From a virus: a stretch of DNA of 64,000 nucleotides. The translations under genes were made by a program, and so were the position numbers. The DNA lies in the IMG/VR virus record IMGVR_UViG_3300017991_000075, positions 1 to 64,000 of that record. One strand, written 5' to 3'. Each line of letters opens with the position of its first letter. The first letter of the stretch is position 1. Positions 5,783 to 39,589 of this stretch are shown here, one piece after another. The notes under the pieces are model-generated. The model was given only the letters and a program-made list of their open reading frames with translations, was not told the origin of the DNA and did no database searches.

Positions 5783-7285
5783 TTAGTAAGGCGGCTGTTG
5801 AGGCGCTGGTGGCGCTGTTGGGGCGACGGGCGGCGGTGGCGGCGCTGCTGCCTGTTGAGCAACTTGCGCTGCTTGCTGTGGTGGCATTTGTGCCGCAGGT
5901 CCAGGTTGCGTCGGCTGTGGAGCTGCCGGTTGCTGCGGGACCTGTGGAGCAGGTGGTGCGCCTACAACGTTAGGCACTCCTTGTGGCGTAGTAGGAGCTG
6001 TTTGCCCAACGGGAGCCGAGAACGCAGGCGCTGCCCCAGGAACTGCAGGCCCTGCAGGCGGTGCAGGAGCTTGCGCCGGTCCCGGCTGTGGTCCCGGTAC
6101 AGGCGGTTGCATAGGCGGCTGTTGTGCCGGTGCAGCGGGCATTGCCGGTGCGGCCGTCTGCGGTTGCTGTGGCACCCCAGGCGCAGGCGGAGGCGGCGGT
6201 GATGCGGCCGGTTGCGCAGGCGGTACAGACGGCGATGCAACCTGCCCTGTCACAGGAGCCTGCGGCGGCATACCATATCCCGGCGTCGGGGCCGGTCCCG
6301 GTGCTGCAGCAGGAACACTTGCCTGACTTTGACCAAAACGCTGTTCAAGTTTCGGCATGAGTTCATCCATCGCGTTCTGGATCTCATCAGGCGTCGTCCA
6401 CTCGAACAGATTGACCCAAGGGACAACCTTGCCGAGCAACTTGTAGATCATCTCCATGTCGGGACTGCCATCAGCAAGCATCGACATAGGATACCCGAAG
6501 TCAGCTCCCGCCTGCTGATAGGGAGGCCCATAGATCGCGTGGATCGTACCGTAGCTTGTGTCGAACTGTCCTGTCCCTTCACGAGTGACTGACAAGTTCA
6601 CACCGTACCACAGAGGATCAAGCACATTGCGACGATGGCCGAAAGGTTCCTCGAAACAATAGTACCTCCAGCTCTGGTGAAAGTCACTGTCCCACACCAT
6701 GAGAGCCGACACGCCAAGGGTGTCATCCTTCGTGTGAAAAGCCTGCCCGTTTTTACCATAATTGACGACCTGCATCACGATGCGCCTTCTCACGAACAAC
6801 GCTGACCTGATAGCATTCTCCAACGGCGTACAAGCGGATTTTTTCTTGTACCGTATCTTCCCGTAGTTTGGATCTTCAAGAAACGCTTGAGCCGGGTCGA
6901 TCTGTGTTGCCGGTGCTCCCGGTATGCCATCAGTCGCGGGTGATACCTTGATCGCTCCGGGGAACAGTGTCATGCCTTTGCTGTCACTGTCATCCTTCGC
7001 GGGCAAGTACAGATCAAACGTCGCATAGGCGAAACCTTTCTCCCATGTGACATTCTGACCCTGCTGCAACAGTGGCAGATTCTCCTGAATCGCAGCATGA
7101 TCCGGCATTACTCTGAAGTGAGAAGCACCGACATCAAACTTGTTGAGAGGTAGAGCACAGCCATCAAGCTGAAGGCCGGACTCTTCTTTCTCGTGCTTCT
7201 CTTGGGATGCCCGTATGTTTTGCATGTACTCTGGCAGAGCCTGCTGCGCCTGCGGGCCGGGCGCTTGGTTTGGAATTCCTGACAT
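5783..7285 (-). CDS. Possible ssDNA-binding protein with proline/alanine/glutamine-rich tail
   Basis: A 500-residue protein. Residues ~45-310 form the only likely folded part. Features include FRVMPD near the front and LWYGVNLSVTREGTG followed by an aromatic-rich beta segment. These recall the KIRLLP and DLxVTKxGxG elements of gp32-like ssDNA-binding proteins. From about residue 325 to the end it is a low-complexity tail of proline, alanine, glutamine and glycine, with almost no charge. Phage SSBs usually carry an acidic tail, so if this is an SSB it is atypical. The gene sits two genes downstream of the DNA polymerase, a suitable place for an SSB. I cannot exclude an unrelated virion or scaffold protein. 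Confidence 0.4.
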   Translation of the reverse strand: MSGIPNQAPGPQAQQALPEYMQNIRASQEKHEKEESGLQLDGCALPLNKFDVGASHFRVMPDHAAIQENLPLLQQGQNVTWEKGFAYATFDLYLPAKDDSDSKGMTLFPGAIKVSPATDGIPGAPATQIDPAQAFLEDPNYGKIRYKKKSACTPLENAIRSALFVRRRIVMQVVNYGKNGQAFHTKDDTLGVSALMVWDSDFHQSWRYYCFEEPFGHRRNVLDPLWYGVNLSVTREGTGQFDTSYGTIHAIYGPPYQQAGADFGYPMSMLADGSPDMEMIYKLLGKVVPWVNLFEWTTPDEIQNAMDELMPKLEQRFGQSQASVPAAAPGPAPTPGYGMPPQAPVTGQVASPSVPPAQPAASPPPPPAPGVPQQPQTAAPAMPAAPAQQPPMQPPVPGPQPGPAQAPAPPAGPAVPGAAPAFSAPVGQTAPTTPQGVPNVVGAPPAPQVPQQPAAPQPTQPGPAAQMPPQQAAQVAQQAAAPPPPPVAPTAPPAPQQPPY

Positions 7286-7844: not shown

Positions 7845-10800
7845 TTAGATATATGGCGTGCTGCAGAACTCTTTCAAAGGATCAAGGTAACTGTGCTCAG
7901 AGAGACTCTGATACCAGTGCTCGTAAGGAACCACTCCGGTGTTTACATAAGGAAGCAAGTCAGATCCGATAACACTCAGATCCTCGATTCCCTTCTTCTC
8001 CTTCAGCGTAGTAGTATCATGAGCCTTGGACAAGTCAATCATCGAGCCCCAGGATGTACCCGCTTCGCCATCGGCCAGAATTGGCACAGGAGTCCCGACC
8101 AAGAACTGGAACGGAACATGCTCCATAACGTACTTGGTAGCGACTGCGACGATCGGCATTTCTCCTGGGGGGCAGTCCCATATGATCGAGTCATGGACTG
8201 AAATCACGACTCTCGATTTCAAACCCAGTCTCTTCGCCCAATTGTTCAACGTGAACCACGTCAACGTCATCATGTCACTGCCAGGACTTTGAATCTGAAA
8301 ATTGATTGCCTGACGTTTCGCCTGTGAAACGATATACTTCTCAGATGAAAAGAACGTAGGCAGATAACGCCGACGACCAGTTACTGTCCAAACGCAACAA
8401 GTATCGCGCAACGACTGCACGGTCTTCTGCTCGAACACTTTGTACTCAGGCATTCGAGCATACATCTTATCGAGGATGTCTTTGGTCTCATCCTCTGAAA
8501 TAATGAGGCCCTTCTTCGTAAGATCCTCAGCGATTCCCTTCGGAGATTCACCATAGAGAGGACCGAACCATATCGATTTGGTGTGTCCTCTGTACTCCCC
8601 GTTGTTAGCGAGGCATTCCTCGGAAGTCTTGTTCCATACTTCCATCGCAAGTTCAAGGTGAAGATCAGCACCTTCCTGATACCTCTCGATCATCCATGAG
8701 ATACCTGCAACGATTCCAAACAGACGCAGCTCCAACTGACTGAAGTCCCATTGCATCAAAGCGCCTGTCGGATCGATGTGTTTCGTGACAAACAGTTTCT
8801 TGATCGGCTTACTACCAGCACCCCTCGTCTTCATGGTTTGTATCGGCGGTTCTACTGCCGACTTACGGCCTGTCCTTGTACCCTTTCCTTTCTCCTTATT
8901 ACCTTGACCGCGATCGTTTCCTGTCATGATGAAGGAAGGATGGCACAAACCATCGTCCCTGATATACCCGATGCCGGTTTTCTTCTTTCCTTTAGTATCG
9001 ACGTACTCGTACTGTCCTTGCTGAAAAGGCAAGCAGTACGTACTGAGATTTTTCTGCCAGGTCCGCACATCGATGATTGCTTGACATACCGGGTCCTGCT
9101 CCTTCAGCTTGTTCATCGATTCCTTGTCAGTAGAAGCTCCACCGCTAGGCGTTGCCTTGACAGGATTGAGACCACAGTAACGTTTACCATACAAGAACTT
9201 CTGAAGATCTGGGTTGCTGTGAGGATTCAGCTCCAGCTCACTGACACGGTAGGTGCTGTTCTTCGCAAGAGAATCTCTTGTCTTGAGCATTACCTTCGCC
9301 ATACGTAGCTCATCAAAACCACCAGGCGCATACTCTCTCCCGGTCTGCCCATCCTCAGAAAACCATGCAACCGGCTTGTCGGCATGATGCATGCAGTGCT
9401 CGAAGTCTCTGTATATAAACCCTTCGTCACTCTGCAGATACTTGCCCTTGCCCTTCAAATCTTTTGATTTATCAACCATCCAAACCTTGTGTGCTGTCGT
9501 ATTCACTATAGGAATCTTGGCAGCATCAAGTTTTGTTTGGAAGTCAATCAACATCGAGTCTCGATGAGGTGTGTTGATAGCGACACCAGCAACCTGTGTC
9601 TCGATGACTGATCTCACATCAGGCATCGTCATCTTGTAAAAGTAATCGAGCATGTTGATGCTTCGAAGTTCTTCTTCGTACTTGACCCTCAACTGTTCTG
9701 TCGCATCCGCGTCAGCACAGCAGTAACGACCAAGCACATCGAGTGACACATGATTCTCATAGCAACGATTACCCGCCGTTACCTTCTTACCCTTCTCGTC
9801 ACGAAAACCATCGAGCAGCTCGTCATCATAGTAGCCCAGATCAGTATCCATCTCAGACAGGTACTTCAAACTATGAAACAGATTCTCATCAATCAGACCA
9901 TGAGCGAGCTGAGTGTCGAAATGGATGTTAGTTACCTCATACCCGTACTTGATTCTGAGGTAAGTTCCATCGTACGCGACGTTATGAGCGGTCTTCTCTG
10001 CAGGACTCTGCAAAGTCCCTTGCAGCGCCTGCAGAACATCGGCCAGACGATCCTTGTATGGGCAATCCTTGTGGTGCAGCGGAATGAAATAGGAGTTTCG
10101 ATGAACGTCAGCAAAACCAACACCAAGCACCTTCGACTTACTTGTGTAGGGGTCCAGAGCATACGGTGCCGGTCCCGCCTCGATATCGAACGCAAACCGA
10201 TCAAGACCCGCAAAGTATTGCAGTACCTGGATCGCAAAGTCGGCATCCTTTACGACATGATAATTCCTACCGGCAAATGTATCTGCGGCAGGATACGTGC
10301 CATCGAGAATACCCCTGATCTTCGTGAAATCGTGCATGATCTCTTTGAACACGAACGGTTCTCTGAAAGCCCATGCGATGTTCGATGTCTTCAACACATG
10401 ACATGGAAACTCACCACGATCCAACGAAGCCACAAAACGTTTCTTTTCCCCCACCAGAGGAGCTGATAGAGGGATCTGCCTGGGGACTTCCTGCACAAAT
10501 CCGCGTGTACGCTGAGGGAGTCCCAGAGCAGCGTACACATCTGTTTTCGCAGCACCACCTACACCGAATACAATGCGGGGTCTGTAGCGTGCGATCTCAA
10601 GAGCAAGCAAGTCAGCACAGTGCTTGTAGTGCTCCATAGTGGGTTTTGTCGCCCCTGATGGACAACGAACCAAAGACGCAAACCTAACATGCGGCACAGG
10701 ATCATCGATCTGCATCGCCTGAGCGATCTGTGCCATAATAAAGTTGCGTACCTGTTCGTCACCACAAACACCACCAGCCATTGAATCTTCATCCACGATA

Positions 10801-10976
10801 CGTGGCATGACGACAAACACTATGGGTGTTTCACTACCCCAACTAGAAAACTGTTTTGTGCAGACTGAAGCCGTACGATTCCAAAGACCGCAACGCTGAC
10901 ACATACCCTGAACGTCAACCTTTTCCATCTCGGTCAGAGGGAACGACTTTAGCTTTGATTGCTTGCCGGGCATCAT
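7845..10976 (-). CDS. polA: Family A DNA polymerase fused to an N-terminal Fe-S UDG-like domain
   Basis: The main replicative DNA polymerase, 1043 residues. Residues ~20-200 match family 4/5 uracil-DNA glycosylases: four cysteines C26, C29, C105 and C120, with the C-x14-C spacing typical of the [4Fe-4S] ligands, and a central GVGGAAK-type segment. The catalytic motif is degenerate: the usual GEAPG-acidic motif reads VVMPRIVDED. The 3'-5' exonuclease follows, with DIE near 264, NVAYD near 332 and CADAD near 421. The polymerase palm and fingers have motif A DFSQLELR (~744), motif B with R-x3-K-x3-F-x3-YG (~802) and motif C VHDS (~927, usually HDE). No 5'-3' exonuclease domain is present; that activity is a separate gene at 34413. 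The start is ATG 10976 (or the adjacent 10973) behind GGAG, overlapping the upstream gene by 62 bp. Confidence 0.95.
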   Translation of the reverse strand: MMPGKQSKLKSFPLTEMEKVDVQGMCQRCGLWNRTASVCTKQFSSWGSETPIVFVVMPRIVDEDSMAGGVCGDEQVRNFIMAQIAQAMQIDDPVPHVRFASLVRCPSGATKPTMEHYKHCADLLALEIARYRPRIVFGVGGAAKTDVYAALGLPQRTRGFVQEVPRQIPLSAPLVGEKKRFVASLDRGEFPCHVLKTSNIAWAFREPFVFKEIMHDFTKIRGILDGTYPAADTFAGRNYHVVKDADFAIQVLQYFAGLDRFAFDIEAGPAPYALDPYTSKSKVLGVGFADVHRNSYFIPLHHKDCPYKDRLADVLQALQGTLQSPAEKTAHNVAYDGTYLRIKYGYEVTNIHFDTQLAHGLIDENLFHSLKYLSEMDTDLGYYDDELLDGFRDEKGKKVTAGNRCYENHVSLDVLGRYCCADADATEQLRVKYEEELRSINMLDYFYKMTMPDVRSVIETQVAGVAINTPHRDSMLIDFQTKLDAAKIPIVNTTAHKVWMVDKSKDLKGKGKYLQSDEGFIYRDFEHCMHHADKPVAWFSEDGQTGREYAPGGFDELRMAKVMLKTRDSLAKNSTYRVSELELNPHSNPDLQKFLYGKRYCGLNPVKATPSGGASTDKESMNKLKEQDPVCQAIIDVRTWQKNLSTYCLPFQQGQYEYVDTKGKKKTGIGYIRDDGLCHPSFIMTGNDRGQGNKEKGKGTRTGRKSAVEPPIQTMKTRGAGSKPIKKLFVTKHIDPTGALMQWDFSQLELRLFGIVAGISWMIERYQEGADLHLELAMEVWNKTSEECLANNGEYRGHTKSIWFGPLYGESPKGIAEDLTKKGLIISEDETKDILDKMYARMPEYKVFEQKTVQSLRDTCCVWTVTGRRRYLPTFFSSEKYIVSQAKRQAINFQIQSPGSDMMTLTWFTLNNWAKRLGLKSRVVISVHDSIIWDCPPGEMPIVAVATKYVMEHVPFQFLVGTPVPILADGEAGTSWGSMIDLSKAHDTTTLKEKKGIEDLSVIGSDLLPYVNTGVVPYEHWYQSLSEHSYLDPLKEFCSTPYI

Positions 10977-11472: not shown

Positions 11473-13041
11473 CTACCTCTTCTTGCGACGAATCGCTTTC
11501 TTGCTGCCAGCTTTCTTCCTGACAACTTTCTTCTTGGTAGAACGCTTCTTTGAAGCAGCCTTCTTGCGCGGCGTTTTCTTGGCTACCTTCTTACGAGCAG
11601 CCTTTTTCTTGCTAGTACGTCCCTTGGACGACTGGCGGCTGCTGGTATTGCTGCTGCGGCTGTTGCCCGACTTGTTGCCCGCCCGCCGCGTGGAGGTTGT
11701 CGGTGATGATTTTCCCAGGCGTGCGGCCTCCAACAATGCAGTGGTGTTCGCTTCAATCGCAGCAGTCAGACGATCAATCTGGTCTGGTGTGACCGAAGGC
11801 ACTAGAACACCCGCAACTTCCTGCAACTCTCCGATATCAACGGGCTCTGGAGGTGCCCCTGGAGGAGCCGCTTCCATCGGAGCGACCTGAACCTGATTCG
11901 CTGTTGTAGCAGTGTTAGGCCCAGGAGCCTCGATAGTGGTCGTTGACTGTGCAGGAGCTGCAGGAGGACCTGCGGCAACTACCTCATGATAACCATCAGG
12001 CATTGGTACTTCGGCAGGCCAGAACTCTGCCTTGATCTTGCTGGCGACTTTACCGCCATCGGTCATAACATCAGGGCCGCCCTCAGCGGGGATACGAGCT
12101 GCCTTACCAACAAGCTTCTTTTTGAATTCCTTATAGACGGCATCCGGATTCTTGGTGAGCTTCGGAGACCCAGCTTCCCATGAGCGTTTCTTGAATCCGC
12201 TGAGAGAGGTGTCTGACAATCCCTTCGGGCCATGCTTCCGTATCACGAGTACGAGAGCAGCAAGCTCCATTTCCTGTTCCTTGGTTGTTGAATCAAAGAA
12301 GTAGTGCTGAGAGCTGTAAGGGATGTTGACATCCGGACCAACCCACTTCTCCTTCACCCATTCCTCACTGCCAACCGCCTCAATTGCGGCTGTAGCTGCT
12401 GCCGGTGGAGCCGCAGGAGCTGCCGCCGCCGGAGCTGCCTGTTGCGGTACTGGTGGGGCAGCGGGCTGAGCAGGCGGTGTCGGTGCCGCTGCTTGAGGTG
12501 CGGGTGGAGCAGCCGGTGTAGCTGGGGGCACCGGAGCTGCCTGTGGTGCAGGTTGAGCTGCCGCCGGAAGTGCCCATTCAAGATTGGCATCTTGGAAGTG
12601 CTGCTTGATGAGCGAAGTCACCCCCTCGACAACACCTGGGATCTGAACGAACATCGCGTTTGCCTGATCATCTGTAGACGGTGCCTGAATCTGGAAGACT
12701 CGGCAGAACGTCGCGATAATAGCACACGCCTGAACATCAACACCTGATGCCGGATTGAACGGCGCAACAGCCCCCATATCTGCGGCTGACGCAGCATAAG
12801 CAGCCATCGTACCGTCAAGGTGCGCAACCTCGTTGTTGCTTGAAAGATGTGTAGCAACCTGTCCCGCGAACTGAACCGTACGATTACCGTTCGCATCAAC
12901 ATACTGGTTGATAACGGAAGCCATGCCTTCAATAGCATAGGCACACTGACGAAGCCAATCCACGATCTGTGGATTGTTCAACGCCTGGGACCAGCTCTCA
13001 ATGCCTCTGAGCTGGGAATAAATCTGAACAGTTGAACTCAT
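11473..13041 (-). CDS. Protein with histone-H1-like lysine-rich C-terminus
   Basis: The ATG at 13041 is preceded by GGAG with nine-base spacing. An upstream ATG at 13077 lacks such a site. The 522-residue protein has four zones. Residues 1-150 form a helical domain. About 165-230 is an alanine/proline/glutamine linker. About 235-330 is a second folded segment (EEWVKEKWVGPDVNIPY, then DSTTKEQEMELAALVLVIRK and a basic stretch around GFKKRSW). The last ~60 residues are almost entirely lysine, arginine, alanine and serine (KKKAARKKVAKKTPRKKA and similar). The tail resembles histone H1 or chlamydial/bacterial H1-like proteins and should bind nucleic acid without sequence preference. A DNA-condensing or nucleoid-targeting role is inferred. 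Confidence 0.6.
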   Translation of the reverse strand: MSSTVQIYSQLRGIESWSQALNNPQIVDWLRQCAYAIEGMASVINQYVDANGNRTVQFAGQVATHLSSNNEVAHLDGTMAAYAASAADMGAVAPFNPASGVDVQACAIIATFCRVFQIQAPSTDDQANAMFVQIPGVVEGVTSLIKQHFQDANLEWALPAAAQPAPQAAPVPPATPAAPPAPQAAAPTPPAQPAAPPVPQQAAPAAAAPAAPPAAATAAIEAVGSEEWVKEKWVGPDVNIPYSSQHYFFDSTTKEQEMELAALVLVIRKHGPKGLSDTSLSGFKKRSWEAGSPKLTKNPDAVYKEFKKKLVGKAARIPAEGGPDVMTDGGKVASKIKAEFWPAEVPMPDGYHEVVAAGPPAAPAQSTTTIEAPGPNTATTANQVQVAPMEAAPPGAPPEPVDIGELQEVAGVLVPSVTPDQIDRLTAAIEANTTALLEAARLGKSSPTTSTRRAGNKSGNSRSSNTSSRQSSKGRTSKKKAARKKVAKKTPRKKAASKKRSTKKKVVRKKAGSKKAIRRKKR

Positions 13042-13114
13042 TTCAAATTTCTCCATCGAAGTTGTGGTTAGAACCACGAGTTAGAACTATGAATGTTTGC
13101 TTTTACCTTCTCCG

Positions 13115-15555: not shown

Positions 15556-16509
15556 TTACTCTCCCCCATCTTCAATGTCACCGAAGTATTCGTCTAATTC
15601 CTCTTCCCAACGCTCCTCTATCAGCTCCTCGATCTCTGTCCAATTGTCGGTCATGAGTTCAATCTGACGACGCATCTTTCCCTCTTCACGCTTTAGTTTG
15701 TCGAACTTCACATCATCTCTAAAGTCGGCGACCGTATCTGCGATCAACCCGTTGATAACTTTCGGCTCAAGAGCATCAAGCTCCCAACTCTCATCACCGA
15801 ACTGAGCGACGTAATCCTTAGCACGAGGGTCCGTCATCTTCGCCGGGTTCGGTGGCGGCCCATATTCCACAACCTGTTCCATGTTCAACGCCAAACGCAC
15901 GACATGCAAATGACCGACAAACATCGCCATGCGATCGAGAATGTCTCTCGTCATATCGATCCCGCTAGAGTCATGATCACCGAGGTGCAGGATGACGGGC
16001 TGCTGACCACGCCCTATCAACTCTCTCATGCGACGAGCTGAACGCCACATTGCGCTTTGACTGTTGTACCCCTTACACGCAAAGTAAGGCACTCGTAAAT
16101 CCTCGCAAGTATTTTCGATGACCCCTTTGAGGGCCTCCTTTTCAATCCAAACTTCAGGTCGATAATCCTGACCCGACCAGAGATCGAGTTTGAACTGCTC
16201 AGCACACGCCGACAGTATGTTGGGCACACCGTTCCACGTCACGGGTTCTTCCACTTCGCGAGTACGATCGACAATCGTATCCCAATCAACGTACCCGGCC
16301 AGTCTGGCGTCATTGATGATGTTACCCAATCTGTTATAACTGGCTGTTGTGTTCGGCAACAGGTCACGACTGACAAACTGATAGTAGAGCTGCCTGAGCG
16401 TCAGGTCGAAACCTTGGGCAGCGTATTCGGCGATTATTCCGTTTGCCTGTTCAATGATCCTTAGAGTTTCAGGACGAAACTTCTTAGTGATATATTCAAT
16501 ACACGGCAT
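15556..16509 (-). CDS. TopoVI-A/Spo11-like protein (Topo mini-A candidate)
   Basis: A 317-residue protein combining two features of type IIB topoisomerase A subunits. Residues ~37-44 read TLRQLYYQ, matching the winged-helix catalytic-tyrosine motif in which the second tyrosine of R-x-x-YY (here Y43) cuts DNA. A Toprim domain follows: the acidic residue in VWIEKEAL (E123/E125) and the DxD in HLGDHDSSGID (D178, D180). It lacks the C-terminal part of a full TopoVI A subunit, and no GHKL-type B subunit is seen in the window. From the literature I recall that such short A-only proteins were reported from mobile elements as Topo mini-A. The C-terminal 90 residues are charged and helical. It may make double-strand breaks or act in DNA replication or segregation. 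Assignment to the superfamily is good; the biochemical activity is inferred. Confidence 0.7.
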   Translation of the reverse strand: MPCIEYITKKFRPETLRIIEQANGIIAEYAAQGFDLTLRQLYYQFVSRDLLPNTTASYNRLGNIINDARLAGYVDWDTIVDRTREVEEPVTWNGVPNILSACAEQFKLDLWSGQDYRPEVWIEKEALKGVIENTCEDLRVPYFACKGYNSQSAMWRSARRMRELIGRGQQPVILHLGDHDSSGIDMTRDILDRMAMFVGHLHVVRLALNMEQVVEYGPPPNPAKMTDPRAKDYVAQFGDESWELDALEPKVINGLIADTVADFRDDVKFDKLKREEGKMRRQIELMTDNWTEIEELIEERWEEELDEYFGDIEDGGE

Positions 16510-16511
16510 AA

Positions 16512-17090
16512 TTATCTCCCTCTAATCCGTGACGGCATGACCTTGATACCCTTGTACCTGTTATGCCGCATCTCTAACTCGTCTTTCGCGGAGTCGATAA
16601 CCGCCAACAGGTCCAGATGCCAATGCGGTTCGTGTACATTGATCTGCCACCATGAAACATGGTCATCTGTATCTATCGTGTTAGATATAACCCCATCAAT
16701 AAACACGATCTGTTTCACATTAGTCACAGGGTCACAGCGTATCTGAGCGCGAAGCTGGTATTCGGCATCTTCAACGCCAGGAACCGAGTAGCAATGATCG
16801 GAGCCGACATCGATGTCCTCACATTCTGGAACAGCGTGATCCTTGAACGCTATAAACATCATATCGACAGCAATCTTAGCTAGTTCCAAAACTCCTGACT
16901 GAACGTCCATAACAAAACCACCGTAATCATCATGTGCTTCGACTTCTTCAGTCCATCCCTGTGTAGCGCAAAAACACATCCACGCCAAAAAAGCGTGAGC
17001 GTCATCCGTCAGCACATAATCGGGTGTCGCAGCATTTGCGGCGCAGTAATAGTGGAGAGGGTTTTTCAGAAGTTCGAGATTCCCCTTCAT
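16512..17090 (-). CDS. Hypothetical protein, 192 aa
   Basis: An acidic protein with several tryptophans and histidines (FLAWMCFCATQGWTEEVEAH, WHLDLLAVIDSAKDEL). No motif is recognised. The start at 17090 overlaps the upstream stop by 4 bp. It is the first gene downstream of the small-gene cluster and lies 2 bp upstream of the TopoVI-A-like gene. Confidence 0.55.
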   Translation of the reverse strand: MKGNLELLKNPLHYYCAANAATPDYVLTDDAHAFLAWMCFCATQGWTEEVEAHDDYGGFVMDVQSGVLELAKIAVDMMFIAFKDHAVPECEDIDVGSDHCYSVPGVEDAEYQLRAQIRCDPVTNVKQIVFIDGVISNTIDTDDHVSWWQINVHEPHWHLDLLAVIDSAKDELEMRHNRYKGIKVMPSRIRGR

Positions 17091-27193: not shown

Positions 27194-28186
27194 CTACTCC
27201 CATAGCCAATCAGGCTCTGACGCCGATGCAAGCACCCTTTGACGGTCTCCCACAGACAGGTCGTTCCAGTCTTTTTCAACGGGTGTTCGTGCCAGGATTG
27301 CCCGTTTTCCGTGCCCAAGAAAAGCCCTGCATACGGCAGCGCTCTCAGAACGGGCGTCCGGATCGAACCCAAGAATGATTTGACGGGCTGGATGCTGCAA
27401 CAACAGACCGAATTGAGCAAGGCTAATGCTCTTACCGAAACAACTGATCGCCGGATAACCTGCCTGCTCCACAGCCCATGCATTGAAAACACCTTCTACC
27501 ACCACAACCGTATCAGCCTGCTCCCACCGATCATAGTTGTACAGGAACTGCGACTTACTGAGAGGTACATCCTTGTTGCTGGGGTTCAGATACTTGAGCT
27601 TCGGATTGAAACGTTTACCGTGATCCCACGCCTGAAAGTAGACGAAGGCCCCGCCGACATAAACCGGCAGACAGGTCCTCTCTCGATACTTACCTGTCAC
27701 GAAATACCCAGCACGCATGCCAAGAAAAAGATCAGGATCGAAACCACGATCAATGATCTCCTGAGCACTCTCGATCGCCGTATCAAGAGCCGCTTCATAT
27801 GGTGGAGTCTGCCCATGCCACATCAGACCTTCAACCTCAAGGTGCTGCAGGTAATCCGGGTCGGCCATTTCCGTAGCCTGGTTATTCCTGAACTCCTCGA
27901 ACATCTCTGCGATAAGATGCGGGTAACGAACATGATCGTCATCAGCAGCGTTGAACATCCGCCTGGCGCTGGCGTAGGTGATGTCCTCGTACTCGGCAAC
28001 AAGTGTTATACCGGTGCCGCCCATACCGCAGCGATAACAGATGAAACGATTCTTTCTAGCGTTGAACCAGAGCTTGAGTTCACGGCCGCAGAAGGGGCAA
28101 TCGAACTTGTACTCCTCGTCATCGCTGCCACGGAACGCAAGGTTGCGCTGTGCCCACTCAAGGATTTTATGGCCGATTTCAGACAT
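27194..28186 (-). CDS. DnaG-type DNA primase
   Basis: A 330-residue DnaG-like primase. The N-terminal zinc ribbon has ligands C30, C33, C50 and C53 (CPFC and CYRCG). The Toprim region has VVVVEGVFNAWAV near residue 235 and ILGFDPDA near 278, giving the acidic metal-binding residues. It should make RNA primers for lagging-strand synthesis with the DnaB-like helicase encoded two genes upstream. It is short compared with bacterial DnaG and lacks a helicase-binding C-terminal domain that I can recognise. The ATG at 28186 abuts the upstream stop as TAATG. Confidence 0.9.
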   Translation of the reverse strand: MSEIGHKILEWAQRNLAFRGSDDEEYKFDCPFCGRELKLWFNARKNRFICYRCGMGGTGITLVAEYEDITYASARRMFNAADDDHVRYPHLIAEMFEEFRNNQATEMADPDYLQHLEVEGLMWHGQTPPYEAALDTAIESAQEIIDRGFDPDLFLGMRAGYFVTGKYRERTCLPVYVGGAFVYFQAWDHGKRFNPKLKYLNPSNKDVPLSKSQFLYNYDRWEQADTVVVVEGVFNAWAVEQAGYPAISCFGKSISLAQFGLLLQHPARQIILGFDPDARSESAAVCRAFLGHGKRAILARTPVEKDWNDLSVGDRQRVLASASEPDWLWE

Positions 28187-28746
28187 TAGAACGGTGTCCA
28201 GTCATCAGGGCAGGCAGGAACAACACCCCATATGCGATTCGGCATCTGATCGTTCACAAGAATGCAATCAGGCAAACCGTATTTTTCTTCAAGATAATCC
28301 CGGATCGCTTTCCATTTGACATGCCAAAAACTATCCGGCTGATTGTAGGTCTGCGACTCAACAAAACGAGCGTCCGTTTTTTCGATTATTTCACGCAGCT
28401 CCTGAGACCGGATGAAGAAAAACTTCACTTGCCGCTCAAACGCTTCTGCAATCGACAGCTTGAACCAACACTTGCGTTTACCGTCGCCATTCATGCTGCT
28501 GGTACGATGCCGCTGATACACGACCACGCAGTAAACCTTATCCTCCTTGAGGCACTCGTTGAACTGAGGAGCTTTGATCACGACACGATAGTATTCATGA
28601 CAACAGGCTTTGACCTCGATAAACGGCTCCTGAAGATCAAACCGCTCACGCACGACTTTCTCAGCCAAGGACCCGGAGGTAGCGGTTCCCTTATGCTGCT
28701 GCTGCCAATACTCAGGCGTGAAAATCTTTTTCCTACGCTTGGCCAC
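28186..28746 (-). CDS. Hypothetical protein, possible PD-(D/E)xK nuclease
   Basis: A 186-residue protein between the helicase and primase genes. Residues ~27-48 give SLAEKVVRERFDLQEPFIEV, then KACCHEYY: the EVK with an upstream glutamate could be a PD-(D/E)xK active site, but the fold is not secure from sequence alone. Its position in the replication operon supports a replication or repair role. Otherwise no family recognised. Confidence 0.4.
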   Translation of the reverse strand: MAKRRKKIFTPEYWQQQHKGTATSGSLAEKVVRERFDLQEPFIEVKACCHEYYRVVIKAPQFNECLKEDKVYCVVVYQRHRTSSMNGDGKRKCWFKLSIAEAFERQVKFFFIRSQELREIIEKTDARFVESQTYNQPDSFWHVKWKAIRDYLEEKYGLPDCILVNDQMPNRIWGVVPACPDDWTPF

Positions 28747-30145
28747 TTTGTTGCCCGTTCAAAAATCCAAGCATCTGATCCTTACCCGGCAAAGGATAAG
28801 CACCCGCATTACCCTTTCTCTCTTTCTCTTCGAGACGTGCCAGGTTGAAATCGATGTTGAACATCAGTTCGTGATATTTAGGGCCAACACGATTCTTTGC
28901 CACGAACAACCGCATCTGGCCCATGTTGTACTCGACATCCGTCTGACAGATCGCAAGAATCACATCAGCTATCGCAGCCTTCTCAAAACACGCTGCAAGA
29001 TCCTGAAGCGTAACACGTTCCTTTTTCGATCCCTCACGATTTGTCTGCGTAGCTGTCACCAACGCCGCATCGAACTCAACAGCGATGCCACGGAGCTGCG
29101 TGTATAGATCAGCCAGCGCATCGTACTTGCTATCCCGTTTCGGCAGCTTCATGAGATCAGGGTAATCAAGCACGATGGCATCGATCTTGTGACCCCAATG
29201 AGCCTGCACTGTATTCAGAAACCCGTAGAGATCCTCGATTGCCAGCTTTCCTGTTGCAAACTCACCGAGAAAAAGCCTGGCTGTAGTGTTGTCTCTGAGG
29301 AAATGCACCCAATTCCAAACATCCTGAAAACGAGCCCGAAACTCCTGCGGGGGAATGCCAGTCAAACAGGCGAGCACCTTCTGCAGAATCAGCGCCTGAC
29401 TTTGTTCGAGCGTAACATGAACGACTTTCTTTCCCTGCTTCAGCATCGCCGCCGCACATGCCGCGAGCACTGTGCTCTTGCCTCTGTTCGGGGGACCTTC
29501 AAACAACAGCATCTCTTTACGGCCAGGACCGCCTGCGATACAGGAATCTATCGAGTTGATACCAAGCGGCACCGGATAACGAGGATCTTGAATGACAGCA
29601 GCCTGATATGTGAAATCGGCATCCCTGAACAGATCCATCCCCACCTGAAGACCGCCGCCGATGCTACTGATGTCCTTGAGTTTGTCAGCAAAACGAATCA
29701 CATCGATCTCACGACCTTGATCGATGTTCTCCTTCATCTCGACAACCATGCCGCGACACGCCTGTTCTTTCGCCCACTCATACACCTGGGTACGAACGTA
29801 ATCTGCATCGAGCATCGGAGCGTCAAACAGCGCCTGTTCGATCATCTGCATCTGAGCTTCGGCCTGCGGCTGCTCCGCCTCCATTCGAGCGGCAACATAC
29901 CTTTGCCGCTCAAGCTCAAACACGGAACGTACACACGGTGATCGGTACTTGTCGTAATAGCTATAGATGATCTCGACGGCTTGAACCAGGTAGATCCCAC
30001 CGAGCCCGGTACTGAAGAACTCAGGAGGCACGCAGCCTCTAACAACACTGAGAAAGTGAACATCTCTCGCCAACAACTTCACAACCGACTGAGAGAACGT
30101 TGGCGGAAACCGTTCAGCTCTTAGAAATTCTTCTGAGCTGCTCAT
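28733..30145 (-). CDS. DnaB-like replicative helicase
   Basis: 470 residues from ATG 30145, which has AAGGA six bases upstream; a longer frame from 30217 lacks a ribosome site. The N-terminal domain is helical. The RecA-fold core has Walker A GPPNRGKST near residue 218, Walker B VLDYPDL about 100 residues further, and a TATQTNRE segment typical of the DnaB family sensor loop. It should be the hexameric helicase that unwinds the fork and cooperates with the primase. It is co-transcribed with the loader-position gene upstream. Confidence 0.9.
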   Translation of the reverse strand: MSSSEEFLRAERFPPTFSQSVVKLLARDVHFLSVVRGCVPPEFFSTGLGGIYLVQAVEIIYSYYDKYRSPCVRSVFELERQRYVAARMEAEQPQAEAQMQMIEQALFDAPMLDADYVRTQVYEWAKEQACRGMVVEMKENIDQGREIDVIRFADKLKDISSIGGGLQVGMDLFRDADFTYQAAVIQDPRYPVPLGINSIDSCIAGGPGRKEMLLFEGPPNRGKSTVLAACAAAMLKQGKKVVHVTLEQSQALILQKVLACLTGIPPQEFRARFQDVWNWVHFLRDNTTARLFLGEFATGKLAIEDLYGFLNTVQAHWGHKIDAIVLDYPDLMKLPKRDSKYDALADLYTQLRGIAVEFDAALVTATQTNREGSKKERVTLQDLAACFEKAAIADVILAICQTDVEYNMGQMRLFVAKNRVGPKYHELMFNIDFNLARLEEKERKGNAGAYPLPGKDQMLGFLNGQQSGQA

Positions 30146-30746
30146 TACGAATCCTTCTGACCATTTCAGTAAACTCGGTATCGGCGGCGAACTGCTCGCA
30201 GACTTGTCGCACACCATCCAGGTAACTTCCCTGGAGCTGCCCTTCGTTCAGCAGCTTGATAAACGTTTCATCTGTCGCCAGAAAATAGGGCGACATCCCG
30301 CCAGCACTCATGCGCATCAACAATTCATAGTCGCTACCGAACAGCGCCTGATTCTGTTCAATCAACTGTAGAGTGCAAGTAATATCATTCCGGATCAAGT
30401 CCGCGTAGGTGTCGTTCATCGGGTGGCACTTGTTCAGCGGCTTGTAAGCCCGGTACTGCAAATACTTCGATCTGCAGTCCTGTGTGTTCAGATACTTCGG
30501 GCCTCTGAAGCGGGGCTTCAACCAAGGCACGCAGACTTGCAGGTAATCTTTCGACCAGATCCCCATCGTCAGGCACCACTGAAACATATTGTAAAACGTC
30601 GCGTAGTTCTTGCGCTGTTCGACAGATTTACCGGAACGACGATTGAAGATGTAGACAACGATGCCGTGTGCCTCGTGATACCGGCGCTCGTACAAGTCGA
30701 AGAGAGACCTGATAATCCTGTTCAACTCTTGCTGATCGTACTGCAT
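30114..30746 (-). CDS. Leader-controlled first gene of helicase-primase operon
   Basis: The ATG at 30746 is chosen because the promoter at 30867-30894 and the terminator at 30765-30798 both lie upstream of it. A longer ORF from 30881 would begin upstream of the promoter's -10 box. The 210-residue product has many aromatic and basic residues (FNRRSGKSVEQRKNYATFYN, KPRFRGPKYLNTQDCRSKYL), with a helical C-terminus. Being directly upstream of the DnaB-like helicase, it occupies the position of helicase loaders or replication initiators, but it lacks a Walker motif, so it is not a DnaC-type ATPase. Function unknown. Confidence 0.6.
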   Translation of the reverse strand: MQYDQQELNRIIRSLFDLYERRYHEAHGIVVYIFNRRSGKSVEQRKNYATFYNMFQWCLTMGIWSKDYLQVCVPWLKPRFRGPKYLNTQDCRSKYLQYRAYKPLNKCHPMNDTYADLIRNDITCTLQLIEQNQALFGSDYELLMRMSAGGMSPYFLATDETFIKLLNEGQLQGSYLDGVRQVCEQFAADTEFTEMVRRIRNEQLRRISKS

Positions 30747-31682: not shown

Positions 31683-33059
31683 ATGAGAGAGACGATCAAA
31701 ATAATCGAACACGGTCCCGTCACAAGAATCGTTCTTCCTGTGTCGGCATCCATCTATGACCGCTCCTCAATTTCCCTGGCGGCTAAACAAGCTGTCACCG
31801 CATGGAACAACGAAGGACGTGCGTTCGATTATTTCGACTCGATGAACATGACGCTGCTACGCGGACATACTCCTCGTGTAGTTCGTGCGTTAGAAGCACA
31901 CGGCTACAGCGTGTCATGGGAGATGACGACGCCGGCCCAGGAGAAGTTCATCTTCGGAGATCCGGTTGGCGAGTTACGGAATCTCCAGGAGTGGGGTGTG
32001 GGTGAAATGCTGAAGCACTACTACGGCATCATCTCTTTCGGGTGTCGTTTCGGTAAGAGCTACACCTACGCCGGGTGGTGGTGCGCTCGTGGTAGGCCCA
32101 GGACGATTATCTTCGCGCACACCGAGAAGATCTGCTCGCAGATGCATGAGGAGCTTTCGGAATGGCTCGGTGAGCCTGTGGGGGTTGTTGCACGGACTAC
32201 GGGGATCAAGGACAACTGGCAAAGACTTACCATCGCATGCGACAAATCATTTTTTGACAAAGAGCGCCAGCTCCTTCCGGACCACAAACCGTATCTGCTG
32301 AACACCGAAGCGATCATCCGTGATGAGTGCCACCAGTTCGGAGAACTCGGCGGTCTGATTTACGACCACTGTCCGAATCTGATTTACTCGTGGGGAGGTT
32401 CGGCAACTCCGTTCAAGAAACAGCCTGAAAAGGATCTTCTCATCGAAGGGTACTGCGGGCCGCTACGGGCCGAAGCCCCGGCAAAGATTTTAGCCGACCA
32501 CGGAATCGTGGCAATGCTTGTATGTCGGTGGAAACGAATATACCATCGGCCGATCATATGGGACACCTGGAACGTGTTGCGTGATAACGCGATCGTACAC
32601 AACTTCGAACGCAACAATGAGATCGCGAAGATATGCCATCACCACCGCGACCAGGGGCTGCGTGGGATCGTATTCGTCGATCGCGTGCCCCACGGGCAAA
32701 ACCTGGAGGCTTTACTGCCTGGCTCGGTGTTCGTAAGTTCGACGACAATGAGTAAGGCACAACGGGACGACTCTCTCAAAAAATTCAATCGCGGAGAGCT
32801 GCATACTGTTGTGACTACAAAAGTTTGGCGAGAAGGAGTCACGTTTTACGCGGACTATGCAATCAACGCAGAAGGTGGTCGAGCCGATCATGTCAACATA
32901 CAAAAAGCGGGGCGTCCATTGATGCCACGGACTGACGGAACCGCTGTTGCTTGGTATGACTTCATCGATCACGGGATCGATAAGCTGTACGATCACTCAG
33001 TAGACCGATATGACTGCATGACAAACGAGGGCTGGGAACAGGAGATACTCGATGGCTAA
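31683..33059 (+). CDS. SF2 DNA helicase
   Basis: A 458-residue superfamily 2 helicase. Motif I GCRFGKSY (near residue 119), motif II DECH in IIRDECHQFG (near 214), motif III SAT in WGGSATPFK (near 237), motif Ia HTEK, and motif VI QKAGRPLM (near 409), in which the second arginine of the usual QxxGRxxR is methionine. The domain order suits UvsW/RecG-like branch-migration helicases of phages rather than an RNA helicase, and the neighbours are recombination genes. Its stop overlaps the RecA-like gene by 8 bp. Confidence 0.85.
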   Translation: MRETIKIIEHGPVTRIVLPVSASIYDRSSISLAAKQAVTAWNNEGRAFDYFDSMNMTLLRGHTPRVVRALEAHGYSVSWEMTTPAQEKFIFGDPVGELRNLQEWGVGEMLKHYYGIISFGCRFGKSYTYAGWWCARGRPRTIIFAHTEKICSQMHEELSEWLGEPVGVVARTTGIKDNWQRLTIACDKSFFDKERQLLPDHKPYLLNTEAIIRDECHQFGELGGLIYDHCPNLIYSWGGSATPFKKQPEKDLLIEGYCGPLRAEAPAKILADHGIVAMLVCRWKRIYHRPIIWDTWNVLRDNAIVHNFERNNEIAKICHHHRDQGLRGIVFVDRVPHGQNLEALLPGSVFVSSTTMSKAQRDDSLKKFNRGELHTVVTTKVWREGVTFYADYAINAEGGRADHVNIQKAGRPLMPRTDGTAVAWYDFIDHGIDKLYDHSVDRYDCMTNEGWEQEILDG

Positions 33060-34410
33060 GAAAAAATATACACCACAATCGATGAAAATGCTGCTCGCCC
33101 AACACGCAGGTGTTAGAGAACACAAACAGCAGTACACGATACCATTTCGCAGCGACATCTTGAACCTGCTACTCGGCGGTGTTTCAACGAGCATGTTCAC
33201 GGAGATCTCCGGAGATCCGAACATGTTCAAATCAACGATCGCTGCTGAGATCATCATCAACGCTTTGATGATGAACGCGGTATGCATCGTTCACGACAAG
33301 GAGCGCAAGCTCATCGAGTCCAGGTTCACGACACTCGGCACCAACGCTTTCGCGTCACCTAACTTTCACTACATCGAAGATGAGTTCCCCGAATATCGTT
33401 TGACGATCGAACAATACTTCACGGACATGCTGCGGTTTGTCGAAGCAACTCGTTACGAAGATCTCGATCGCATCCGGAAACAGTTCAGCAACGACAAGAA
33501 AAATCCCAGCACAGCGAACGACGGGCTGTATGATTACTACCGCCGTTACCTGCCACTTGCCGATCGCGATCACAAACGTACTGAGGCCCGCTGCAACAAA
33601 ATCGCCGATCAGCTCAAAACACCGAACCTGTTACGTCCGGAAGATAAAACCCTGATCCTCACGGTGCTTGATTCAACAACGGCCGTACCGTCGAAAGAAG
33701 AGGCGTATGACCCAAAGACCGGCGAAGTCCCAGACCCGAACCCTGCGCTACAGGCACGGGTGTGGTCGCAGTTCCTGCGCACATGCTTGTGGATGGATGA
33801 TCGTGTTGCAGCTCTGCATCTCTCACAGAAACGTCTCAAATTGAACTTCACAGGTAACAGCTACGAGAGGGCAGCCGTAACAAGATCTCAGGAGTATTAC
33901 TACACGACCAGGATCATGCTTGCGATGGCCGCGAACGGGAAGCTCTACCGGCATCCGACAACTGGTGAGATCGTCATTGGCGACAGCGGGCACGCTCTCG
34001 ATCAGAAGATCAACCAAATTGGTCAGATCACGCGAGCACGTATCATGAAGAGTTTGACCGGCATCAAGACCGAAATCCCGTTATTCATGCTCGGCCAGAC
34101 CGGCACTGATCGCATCAACTCGATGTGGGAGTTTCTGCTGCAACGTAACTTGATCAAGCATTACCACGGCGGTCGTTGGCATTTCAACCACCCATTGTTT
34201 GACGCCATCTGGGACCCGAACACAGTCAAGTTCAAACGAACTGAGTTCATCGATCTGTATGTCCAGGACGGTGCCAAGCTTGGTCGCGTGTTGGAGCAAT
34301 ACAAGAATCTACTTCTCACCGGCCGCGAGGAAGAACCAGAAGAATCGACTAATGAGATGCCGCTTCCACCAACGGCATCACAAATGCCTCCACCGCCTGC
34401 AATGGAGTGA
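33052..34410 (+). CDS. RecA/UvsX-like recombinase
   Basis: A 452-residue RecA-fold ATPase. Walker A is GDPNMFKST (residues 54-62), in the style of phage UvsX proteins rather than GPESSGKT; Walker B is VLDSTTAVP (about 204). A phenylalanine-rich helical middle and a proline-rich tail (TNEMPLPPTASQ) follow. It should form filaments on ssDNA and perform strand exchange. Stop TGA overlaps the GTG alternative start of the next gene. Confidence 0.8.
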   Translation: MAKKKYTPQSMKMLLAQHAGVREHKQQYTIPFRSDILNLLLGGVSTSMFTEISGDPNMFKSTIAAEIIINALMMNAVCIVHDKERKLIESRFTTLGTNAFASPNFHYIEDEFPEYRLTIEQYFTDMLRFVEATRYEDLDRIRKQFSNDKKNPSTANDGLYDYYRRYLPLADRDHKRTEARCNKIADQLKTPNLLRPEDKTLILTVLDSTTAVPSKEEAYDPKTGEVPDPNPALQARVWSQFLRTCLWMDDRVAALHLSQKRLKLNFTGNSYERAAVTRSQEYYYTTRIMLAMAANGKLYRHPTTGEIVIGDSGHALDQKINQIGQITRARIMKSLTGIKTEIPLFMLGQTGTDRINSMWEFLLQRNLIKHYHGGRWHFNHPLFDAIWDPNTVKFKRTEFIDLYVQDGAKLGRVLEQYKNLLLTGREEEPEESTNEMPLPPTASQMPPPPAME

Positions 34411-34412
34411 CC

Positions 34413-35411
34413 ATGGAACGAACGCTGATACTCGATCTTCACAACCTGGCACATCGTGCTGCTTACGCCTTCAGGAACCTGTGGGCGGGAGATACCTTCA
34501 CAGGTCTTTATCACGGGGTGTTTACGATGATCGAGTCGTACATGAAACAGATGCAACCAACCCACGTTGCATTTGTCAGCGACCGTATTATGCGCCCCGA
34601 AGACGCGAAGGGCATGAGGAACTCTTGGCGCATCTCTATAAACGAGTCTTACAAGAATCGAGCTTCGAAACGAAACAAGGAACAGGAGAAGCAGTACCAA
34701 GCGATCCAGCGTCAGCTCCCCGTGCTCAGAGCGGCGCTGCAGTGCCTGCCCTGCTACTGGTTCGAGCAGGACATGATGGAGGCCGACGATCTGATCGCCT
34801 GGCTGGTTACGGAATTTTTCAAGACAACCGAGAACATCATCGTATCCACGGATAAGGATCTCATTCAGCTCGTAGGTCCTGGTACGACGATGTACTACCC
34901 CGGTGCCAAAGTGCAGGTATGGATCACGGCAACAGATTTCCCACAACAGACATCGAGGTTCATCGAGAGCAACAAAAAGGCTCACCCGTCAGAGCATTGG
35001 CACCCGCCGACACCGGCAGCGTGGCTTGACTACAAATGCTGCCTCGGTGACACCAGCGATAACATCGAGGGACTGAAAGGCATCGGCCCCAAGTGGGCGT
35101 GGAACATCGCCAGAGCTGGCGGCTTCACGATGGCGAGGATGCTATGGGCCGATAAGAAGGGCGGGAAGTACGAGTACATTTGTTCTGATGAAGCACTGAG
35201 AGATTACGATCTATCAAAGCAGTTATCGGAACTACCTAGCCGCTGGATGACGGACATGATTCATCGCACGCAGCACTATCACGGTCAGTACCCAGGTAAC
35301 TACGATGAGTTCGTACGCTGGTGCGAATCGTTGAGTCTGCAGAAGATCCAGCACGGGGTTTTACAAGAAAGGGCTCGCAATGGCGTTACAGTTGATCAGA
35401 TGCCCGGATAA
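34413..35411 (+). CDS. 5'-3' exonuclease/flap nuclease (FEN/RNase H-like)
   Basis: 332 residues from ATG 34413, which has GGAG five bases upstream; an in-frame GTG at 34407 is possible. Active-site acidic residues are visible in ILDLHN (D8), EADDLIA (near 130) and STDKDL (near 150), and CLGDTSDNIEGLKGIGPK contains the final aspartates and the helix-hairpin-helix H3TH. This supplies the 5'-3' exonuclease missing from the polymerase and removes RNA primers. Confidence 0.9.
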   Translation: MERTLILDLHNLAHRAAYAFRNLWAGDTFTGLYHGVFTMIESYMKQMQPTHVAFVSDRIMRPEDAKGMRNSWRISINESYKNRASKRNKEQEKQYQAIQRQLPVLRAALQCLPCYWFEQDMMEADDLIAWLVTEFFKTTENIIVSTDKDLIQLVGPGTTMYYPGAKVQVWITATDFPQQTSRFIESNKKAHPSEHWHPPTPAAWLDYKCCLGDTSDNIEGLKGIGPKWAWNIARAGGFTMARMLWADKKGGKYEYICSDEALRDYDLSKQLSELPSRWMTDMIHRTQHYHGQYPGNYDEFVRWCESLSLQKIQHGVLQERARNGVTVDQMPG

Positions 35412-36432
35412 AGTCTGGGCGGTGGGTGGTGGAGATCACCACATGCATGATCATGGGCAGTTCAACGACCCCAGCGTCAGGCCATACGGATCGCGCATCG
35501 AACGTAGCGTGACATCGCTGCGTTTCGGGTTCGACCAGGCAAGGTTCTACAAGGTGCCACTGATTCACAACGGCGATCTGATGCACCTCAAGAACTCAAT
35601 CAGCCCTTTAGTGCTTTGTGCGCTATACCAGATCTGCATAGACAACGCTGATGTTCTGTTTTGGGTCAATACCGGCAACCATGAACGACCCGACAAGCAC
35701 TCCAACATGACGACACTGACGGCTCTTGGGATGTTTCAGCATATCACAGTCATCCCGGCCGCCTGGGTGTTCGCTACCGAAGAATGTGTCTTCTGTTTCC
35801 TGCCGTTTTACTCGACGCAGGGACAGCGTGAAGCAGATCTCGAAGCGATCTGTGACATGACCAAAGAGATCACGGACAAACCAAAGATCCTGTTCACACA
35901 CTACCCGCTTGGCGGTGCCGCGATCGGGCGAGGGTTGAAGCTGACTGGAGGGCTGAAGTTCGATGACTTTGCTCCCGCATACTTTGACCTGATATTGTTC
36001 AACGACATCCACAAGCACCAGCCCGTAGGCACGCACGGGTATCATCTTGGTGCAACTCATGGTAATTCATTCAACGAGGCCGATTATGAATGTGGCTGGT
36101 GGTTGATTGGTAAAGACAGCCAAGGGCTTTGCATCTGGCCGGTACGTCAGGGAGATCTTCCGGAGTTCAAGATCGCAACTACTGAAGAAGAGGCGAAAGC
36201 TCTACAAGAACAAGGACACTTCGTTCGTCTCAATTTGGAAAAGCGTATCGCTGACGAACTTGAGATGAGTGAGGCACCCCGTATCACAACATCCGAACTC
36301 AACGAGCTGGTCAACGGATGGATTGAACACAAACTCGATAGCCGCAAGGAGCTGAACGAGGTTCAGATTCAATGCATTCGCGACCGCATTAGCTGGTGCC
36401 TTCAGCAGGGAGCAATCGAATGCGGCTCGTAG
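35380..36432 (+). CDS. SbcD/gp47-like metallophosphatase nuclease
   Basis: A 350-residue calcineurin-type nuclease. Motifs in order: DHH (19-21), GDLMH (near 66), NTGNHE (near 97), THYP (near 175) and NDIHKHQ (near 209). It pairs with the SbcC-like ATPase whose gene overlaps it by 13 bp; together they form an Mre11/Rad50-type complex that processes double-strand ends. The start overlaps the exonuclease gene by 32 bp. The C-terminal ~90 residues are helical and probably contact the ATPase. Confidence 0.85.
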   Translation: MALQLIRCPDKVWAVGGGDHHMHDHGQFNDPSVRPYGSRIERSVTSLRFGFDQARFYKVPLIHNGDLMHLKNSISPLVLCALYQICIDNADVLFWVNTGNHERPDKHSNMTTLTALGMFQHITVIPAAWVFATEECVFCFLPFYSTQGQREADLEAICDMTKEITDKPKILFTHYPLGGAAIGRGLKLTGGLKFDDFAPAYFDLILFNDIHKHQPVGTHGYHLGATHGNSFNEADYECGWWLIGKDSQGLCIWPVRQGDLPEFKIATTEEEAKALQEQGHFVRLNLEKRIADELEMSEAPRITTSELNELVNGWIEHKLDSRKELNEVQIQCIRDRISWCLQQGAIECGS

Positions 36433-38270: not shown

Positions 38271-38282
38271 CGAGAAACACTC

Positions 38283-38804
38283 ATGGCTAAAGAACCAAAA
38301 ATCGCGCTGTTTCAATTCGGCTATCTGATCAACGTTCCACCGCTCAAACAGGAGCTGTTCATCGATAACGATGACATTCTGCTCAAATGGGTGTCTCTTG
38401 GATGGCATACGATGCCCGATCAGATGCACAACGACAACACGGCACAGGGCGGTTTCTTCATTGTCCCTGGTTTGACCATCAAGATTGAAGATTTCGTCTA
38501 TATGCACCGATGGATCAACATCCAAGCTCCGGGAGCGGGACCGTGGCTTGAGCAGCACGAGTGGAATTACGACCGCACCGTGATCGGCTATGTTCACAAG
38601 ATTGTATTCAAGAACGGATGGCAATTAGAAACAGCCTCCCAACACAAGTTCGACGATGTGTGGTCGCCGAGGATCGCTGACAACCGCATAGCGCTGCTTG
38701 AGAACTCAGCCGTCAACCTGGAGTACGTATCAAAGGTAACGAGCTTCAGGACCAACCTGGCTGATTACGTACAGTTTCTGACTGAACGCAAGGAACAAGA
38801 ATGA
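38283..38804 (+). CDS. Hypothetical protein, 173 aa
   Basis: A mixed alpha/beta protein in the recombination operon (YLINVPPLKQELFIDNDDIL, TIKIEDFVYMHRWINIQAPG). No active-site signature recognised. Stop overlaps the RuvC-like gene by 4 bp. Likely a cofactor of replication or recombination by position only. Confidence 0.55.
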   Translation: MAKEPKIALFQFGYLINVPPLKQELFIDNDDILLKWVSLGWHTMPDQMHNDNTAQGGFFIVPGLTIKIEDFVYMHRWINIQAPGAGPWLEQHEWNYDRTVIGYVHKIVFKNGWQLETASQHKFDDVWSPRIADNRIALLENSAVNLEYVSKVTSFRTNLADYVQFLTERKEQE

Positions 38805-39589
38805 GATACGACTTCATCATCGGTATAGACCCCGGCTATGCGACACTCGGCCTCGCCATAATCGACCTGCGTAACGGTCGTCCTCAATTCGTTCACATGA
38901 GTTCAGCTCTTACCGTAAAAACGGTAAAGGCCCCCACCTCTAAAGAAAAGAAACAACTCAAGATCAAATTTCCGATTGAAGAATTTCAAGAACGCGAAGA
39001 GACCTTTCAACGAATCAATTTACTCGCTGACTATGTTCGAGGGGCTATACGCCACGTATGTAACCCAATATTCAAACTGAATGCTCTTATAGTCATTGAA
39101 GAATGGACCGCCAGTCCGAACGCTAGGTACGTAAAAACGATCTACTATCGTGGTGCGGCTGATGCGGCTGTTCGCCAGGTAGTCAACATGTACGGCGCAC
39201 AGACTCTAACGGTTGACAATATCTGGGTGAATCAGTTCTCCAACGTACAGGGCAAGAAAACAATCGACAAAGACAATCCGACACCTATGGAGATCCTGTT
39301 GTGCATACAAATGTTGTGTCCTTGGCTCAACGGATTTGACGTACAACAATGGCTCGAACATCGTGGCACCGCGCATACATTGAATGGTTCAAGACAGCAA
39401 AAGGGGGTTCCCGAAAAGGCCAAACTACACTATGCTGATGCTGCGGTGATGGCCACCATGGGAGTCCTGGCAATCGATCCAGATCTCGCAGGCCAACGCC
39501 CGCCAAATCAGATGGAGAAACTATCGTACCTGTGGGAGCGCCTGCGTGAAGTCCAAGACCATGATCTTCGACAACGAAGCGGCAACTGA
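38801..39589 (+). CDS. RuvC-like Holliday junction resolvase
   Basis: A 262-residue RNase H-fold endonuclease. Acidic active-site positions: D10 in FIIGIDPGYATLG, E100/E101 in LIVIEEW, and the HxxD of LHYADAA (H210, D213). It is longer than bacterial RuvC, with a charged insert at residues ~45-65 (SKEKKQLKIKFPIEEFQERE). It probably resolves branched DNA before packaging. It overlaps the sigma-factor gene by 44 bp. Confidence 0.75.
   Translation: MRYDFIIGIDPGYATLGLAIIDLRNGRPQFVHMSSALTVKTVKAPTSKEKKQLKIKFPIEEFQEREETFQRINLLADYVRGAIRHVCNPIFKLNALIVIEEWTASPNARYVKTIYYRGAADAAVRQVVNMYGAQTLTVDNIWVNQFSNVQGKKTIDKDNPTPMEILLCIQMLCPWLNGFDVQQWLEHRGTAHTLNGSRQQKGVPEKAKLHYADAAVMATMGVLAIDPDLAGQRPPNQMEKLSYLWERLREVQDHDLRQRSGN

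Follow-up and report, generated by a model that had tools for sequence, protein, structure and literature searches.

Can the cleavage subunit of a type IIB topoisomerase serve a phage without its ATPase partner and, if so, in what process? This question is raised by an open reading frame in the IMG/VR virus record IMGVR_UViG_3300017991_000075. The stretch analysed (the window) covers positions 1 to 64,000 of this 99,054-nt record. A reading of the window from its letters and open reading frames (the sequence-only reading) had described positions 15556-16509 as the gene of a phage protein related to topoisomerase VI subunit A (TopoVI-A) and Spo11, lacking a B subunit and fitting the Topo mini-A class.

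The gene and its phage

The proposed open reading frame exists and is encoded on the minus strand (15556..16509). It runs from an ATG at 16509 to a stop at 15556 and specifies 317 amino acids, while a plus-strand reading of the same positions is ruled out by stops throughout. A Shine-Dalgarno-like AGGGAG motif (16515..16524, minus strand) is found a few nucleotides 5' of the ATG, inside the 3' end of the upstream gene (16512-17090). The gene is confirmed as real, with similarity to other proteins far beyond chance. It is part of a run of minus-strand genes extending from a family A DNA polymerase (7845-10976) to a primase and a DnaB-like helicase (27194-30217). The polymerase (1043 amino acids) also has a weak match of the uracil-DNA-glycosylase kind N-terminal of its exonuclease domain, at residues 93-172; with E=1.8e-4 it falls slightly short of the Pfam cut-off. 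The gene at 11473-13077 (minus strand) encodes a 534-residue protein with an Ala/Pro-rich repetitive middle, a weak phrog_6734 match and a lysine-rich C-terminus carrying histone-H1-like AKK/RKK repeats.

The genes for recombination are not adjacent to the mini-A gene in this genome. Region 31683-39589 includes a helicase, a UvsX-like recombinase (33052-34410, plus strand), a 5'-3' exonuclease (34407-35411, plus strand), SbcD-like (35380-36432, plus strand) and SbcC-like (36396-38270, plus strand) proteins and a RuvC-like resolvase. The genes from 33052 to 38270 form a compact plus-strand operon, which is followed by the resolvase and a sigma-factor-like gene (39546-40445).

A single open reading frame of 3166 amino acids (53170-62670, minus strand) lies in what is presumed to be the structural gene region. 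The remaining part of the record, beyond the window, encodes a large terminase, a major head protein and a tail protein and gives a weak portal match; the terminase, major head and tail genes identify a tailed phage. In sequence this phage is remote from named phages: identity to the best named-phage match is only some 24-27% for both its DNA polymerase and its terminase.

Family assignment

A PHROGs search with the protein identifies PHROG 6247, 'DNA topoisomerase' (E=2.9e-107, residues 5-299). By tblastn it has matches in 76 records of phages, the best at an E of about 1e-93, and coverage reaches at least 80% in 65 of them. The match in Pseudomonas phage NP1 has 42.3% identity over 281 residues (10-290; E=1e-68), and NP1 provides the Mini-A example drawn in a review (PMC7614492). 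It is because of this homology to the NP1 protein that we apply the label Topo mini-A to the 317-residue protein, and the class proposed by the sequence-only reading is thereby supported. The class is reportedly defined in a paper by Takahashi et al. from 2020 and is said to have been a named family since that year. Reviews describe its members as small, encoded by mobile elements and of unknown function (PMC8185306, PMC8084294); the papers that we found contain no report of Topo mini-A activity. The present gene is virus-encoded, with terminase, major head protein and tail genes in its own record, and its sequence makes it, on sound grounds, a further member of an already described family of virus proteins.

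Like the NP1 protein, it is a short phage-encoded A-subunit homologue with a winged helix and a Toprim domain but no B subunit. Nothing decisive differs between them, although the phage here is unrelated to named phages and its protein has S where all other family sequences compared have P (DHDSSG for DHDPSG). In the deposited sequence of Roseobacter phage RDJL Phi 1 a frameshift divides the mini-A gene (approximately 6001-6899) into gp26 and gp27; the match in RDJL Phi 2 is unbroken.

Fold and relation to topoisomerase VI

Pfam identifies no relevant family in the 317-residue protein alone, with no TopoVI and no DUF2399 match, and searches of PDB sequences, both single and with a profile, return nothing relevant to TopoVI. 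Structure and profile-profile comparisons are therefore needed to show the relation. Other members of the mini-A family have weak Pfam matches to TP6A_N, TOP6A-Spo11_Toprim and DUF2399.

The AlphaFold model of the protein, built from 59 sequences, is confident (pLDDT 93.4, pTM 0.84). Using Foldseek, only three PDB chains match the model with E<0.001, and all are M. mazei TopoVI-A. The best chain, 9o0g_C (TopoVI-A in a cleavage state), is aligned over 319 columns including both domains (E=9e-5, probability 1.00). The Foldseek TM-score against TopoVI-A is only 0.32 and the rmsd is high, so the two domains cannot be overlaid together as a rigid unit; the predicted structure resembles TopoVI-A at the level of the fold alphabet, which falls short of a close match in structure. 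The earlier assignment nevertheless withstands this check, as TopoVI-A is the best PDB match of a confident model despite the low global score.

Profile comparison gives a similar picture. Aligned by hhalign with 25 TopoVI-A sequences gathered from archaeal genomes, the mini-A profile obtains E=8.7e-4 (7.3e-4 with a wider mini-A set, 0.45 for a reversed control), at a probability of only 23-26%. In the resulting register TLRQLYY is matched to TLRELYY, E123 to the glutamate of the Toprim domain and D178/D180 to the two aspartates of DxD. The model, the profile alignment and conservation delimit a predicted N-terminal winged-helix (5Y-CAP) part (approximately residues 1-105; 16195..16509, minus strand), whose border is approximate, and a predicted Toprim part (approximately residues 116-252; 15754..16164, minus strand) with E123, H175-L-G-D178-H-D180 and W242-E243-L-D-A-L. 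The model also includes C-terminal helices with an acidic tail (approximately residues 264-317; 15556..15720, minus strand), where the sequence is not conserved.

The protein is thus like TopoVI-A in its active-site residues and in both domains, which are in register. It differs in the missing subunit B gene, its shorter length and the lack of detectable single-sequence similarity in the PDB. Four archaeal genomes contain two Top6A-like genes each; the main gene in these has SIRQLFY and is about 31% identical to other archaeal TopoVI-A.

Active-site residues

The motifs reported from the sequence, TLRQLYY with Y43 as its second tyrosine and HLGDHD (175-180), are present as claimed. Y43 (codon 16381..16383, minus strand), the predicted catalytic tyrosine, aligns with the second tyrosine of the archaeal TLRELYY. 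We examined its conservation in 182 sequences, comprising the window protein and its relatives, and found it in all 182. R39, E123, K124, D178, H179, D180, S182, G183, D189, E243 and D245 are likewise invariant. Part of this set had been retrieved with patterns that include YYQ or DHDPSG; relatives retrieved without them show the same conservation. Residues 178-183 of the window protein (DHDSSG) are the sole exception to the DHDPSG of the other 181 sequences.

More distant proteins extend this result. Two Streptomyces plasmid proteins with 31% identity retain R39, Y43, E123, D178, D180 and E243, whereas both have changed H179 to F and D245 to E, and one has M instead of Y42. Y42 is also replaced by F in five of the 182 sequences. 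As Y42 varies (F or M), Y43 is the predicted nucleophile. Distant mini-A-like proteins of this kind (about 31% identity) occur on 37 Streptomyces plasmid records and are annotated as hypothetical where examined.

The proposed acidic pair E123/E125 stands only in part. Both residues are present and E123 is found in 182/182 sequences, but position 125 is not conserved (D in 125, E in 48, Q in seven, A in one and N in one), which places E125 outside the catalytic set. The catalytic set of M. mazei TopoVI is R102/Y106/E202/D254/D256/E342 (PMC13040014), with R39/Y43/E123/D178/D180/E243 as the mini-A counterparts. For E243, correspondence to the TopoVI clasp residue E342 is suggested by a shared E-x-x-A/S-L pattern and not by superposition.

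Search for a B subunit

The sequence-only reading was right in finding no GHKL gene in the window, and a search of the rest of the genome extends this absence to the full 99,054-nt record: neither PF02518 nor PF13589 has a match there, while both match in 14 of 14 control genomes. We also searched 48 virus records with a mini-A gene (35 from IMG/VR and 13 named phages). PF13589 is absent from 47, and in the single positive record (242.6 kb) the GHKL gene is more than 75 kb from mini-A. TopoVI-A was not found in eight bacterial or archaeal assemblies carrying mini-A. Topoisomerase VI, an A2B2 enzyme with a GHKL subunit B, is therefore not what this record encodes. Topo VIII resembles mini-A in being a type IIB core on mobile elements but carries a B part, often fused to the A part; the 317-residue chain ends in its Toprim domain and helices, with no GHKL.

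A B subunit could also take another form, and we looked for a neighbouring gene that accompanies mini-A. None recurs across approximately 183 loci. The largest real cluster, an XRE-like regulator, is present at 26 of these; a group of ORFs at 28 loci proved to be an artefact, being antisense shadows of the mini-A gene. The commonest family accounts for five of the 147 immediate neighbours. The direct neighbours of mini-A in this genome are without relatives at the other mini-A loci, where matches are confined to a small number involving polymerase, primase, helicase, exonuclease and SbcC. As no neighbouring gene recurs, no substitute for the B subunit was found, and a conserved neighbour acting as a hidden B subunit is rejected.

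Distribution

IMG/VR contains relatives of mini-A on at least 544 stretches; others are encoded on 184 stretches of contigs from prokaryote genomes and on 46 plasmids. The 80 genome-contig loci retained carry the labels of 16 phyla. In a quick tree of mini-A loci there are 22 changes of phylum label (minimum 15, shuffled mean 48), indicating that mini-A groups by the phylum of its host, with occasional crossing between phyla. Although the phage is remote from its named counterparts, its mini-A protein shares up to 54-58% identity with proteins from other phages. By this comparison it looks like a strongly constrained single-gene module.

Proposed mechanism

Homology, active-site composition and the missing GHKL partner are supported by sequence and model. 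The reading we favour, with a probability of roughly three in four, is that mini-A is a Mg2+-dependent homodimeric DNA breaker or rejoiner using 5'-phosphotyrosyl chemistry. Its dimerisation, cleavage chemistry and overhang are proposed by analogy with the known enzymes. Two copies would dimerise on bent duplex DNA and form two hybrid active sites. In each of these, Y43 from the winged helix of one subunit would attack the DNA backbone, while E123, D178 and D180 from the Toprim domain of the opposite subunit would hold Mg2+. The product would be a break whose 5' ends carry mini-A and presumably overhang by 2 nt. A clasp of R39 and E243 may restrain Y43 until the DNA is properly bent.

Cleavage of this type would be reversible and ATP-free. 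SPO11 dimers alone break DNA in vitro via hybrid active sites (PMC11922746), so that for this fold cleavage can proceed in the absence of a B subunit. Since mini-A has no GHKL partner, its cutting would not be tied to ATP-driven strand passage, and it would break or reversibly nick DNA without being a complete type IIB topoisomerase.

Biological role and alternatives

The likeliest role, which we put forward tentatively, is that mini-A supplies breaks for phage recombination or recombination-dependent replication, together with the UvsX-, SbcCD- and RuvC-like proteins. The gene set of this phage, from helicase to RuvC-like resolvase, could process Spo11-like breaks. The recombination genes are unlinked to mini-A, an SbcD homologue occurs in only nine of 48 mini-A records and there is no recombinase among the recurrent neighbours; the proposed role is thus based on gene content, not on conserved linkage. 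The same count (9/48) leads us to reject SbcCD as a general obligate partner comparable to Mre11-Rad50, which clears Spo11. Mini-A resembles Spo11 as a cleavage subunit without ATP-driven strand passage and in its R-x3-Y and Toprim set. Spo11, however, acts in eukaryotic meiosis and has B-like partners, whereas the recombination role of mini-A is one that we infer. It is possible, though on balance doubtful, that phages have in mini-A their counterpart of Spo11: a tyrosine DNA breaker that needs neither partner nor ATP, occurs across tailed phages of bacteria from many phyla and starts programmed recombination of phage genomes.

The main rival to a role in recombination is one in relaxing or swivelling. 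A mini-A dimer would then cut phage DNA reversibly and let it swivel, relaxing or decatenating it with neither ATP nor a B subunit and so easing replication or packaging. Tailed phages experience topological strain, the catalytic set is identical to that of TopoVI-A, one Topo VIII is reported to relax DNA independently of ATP (PMC7614492) and SPO11 to relax it through swivelling (PMC11922746). With no GHKL partner in the record, however, there would be no gated strand passage, and gyrase and topoisomerase IV are already supplied by the host. We consider this rather unlikely.

The absence of a visible GHKL domain would have a different meaning if a phage or host protein without one were coupled to mini-A, as MTOPVIB and Rec102 are to Spo11. 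Divergent B-like partners are known for Spo11, and the flanking genes here have no Pfam family match, so that a partner could hide among them. This is improbable given that immediate neighbours differ at nearly every locus and that the largest cluster, of XRE type, is present at 26 of about 183 loci. A partner supplied by the host may still exist.

Least probable is an endonuclease like those of Wadjet (JetD/MksG) or Gabija, selective for sequence or structure and acting by hydrolysis without a covalent intermediate against competing plasmids or host DNA: the Toprim fold is common to MksG/JetD, five of 25 mini-A members are weakly similar to DUF2399 (the JetD C-terminal family) and the mini-A Toprim part gives a profile E=0.003 against DUF2399 proteins, but this distant similarity is limited to the Toprim domain, these nucleases act with an SMC complex and no conserved JetABC-like partner is nearby, and MksG has no tyrosine at the 5Y-CAP position, so that the invariant Y43 leads us to reject a JetD-like identity.

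Significance

For the Topo mini-A family, the present analysis defines the invariant residues more sharply and strengthens the evidence that its members work without a GHKL partner. Even the most distant members keep the entire TopoVI/Spo11 catalytic set, with neither a GHKL gene nor a recurrent neighbour, which points to a very small natural TopoVI-A-like module. Mini-A may therefore provide a simple system for studying the cleavage core without its ATPase, and bears on the origin of Spo11.
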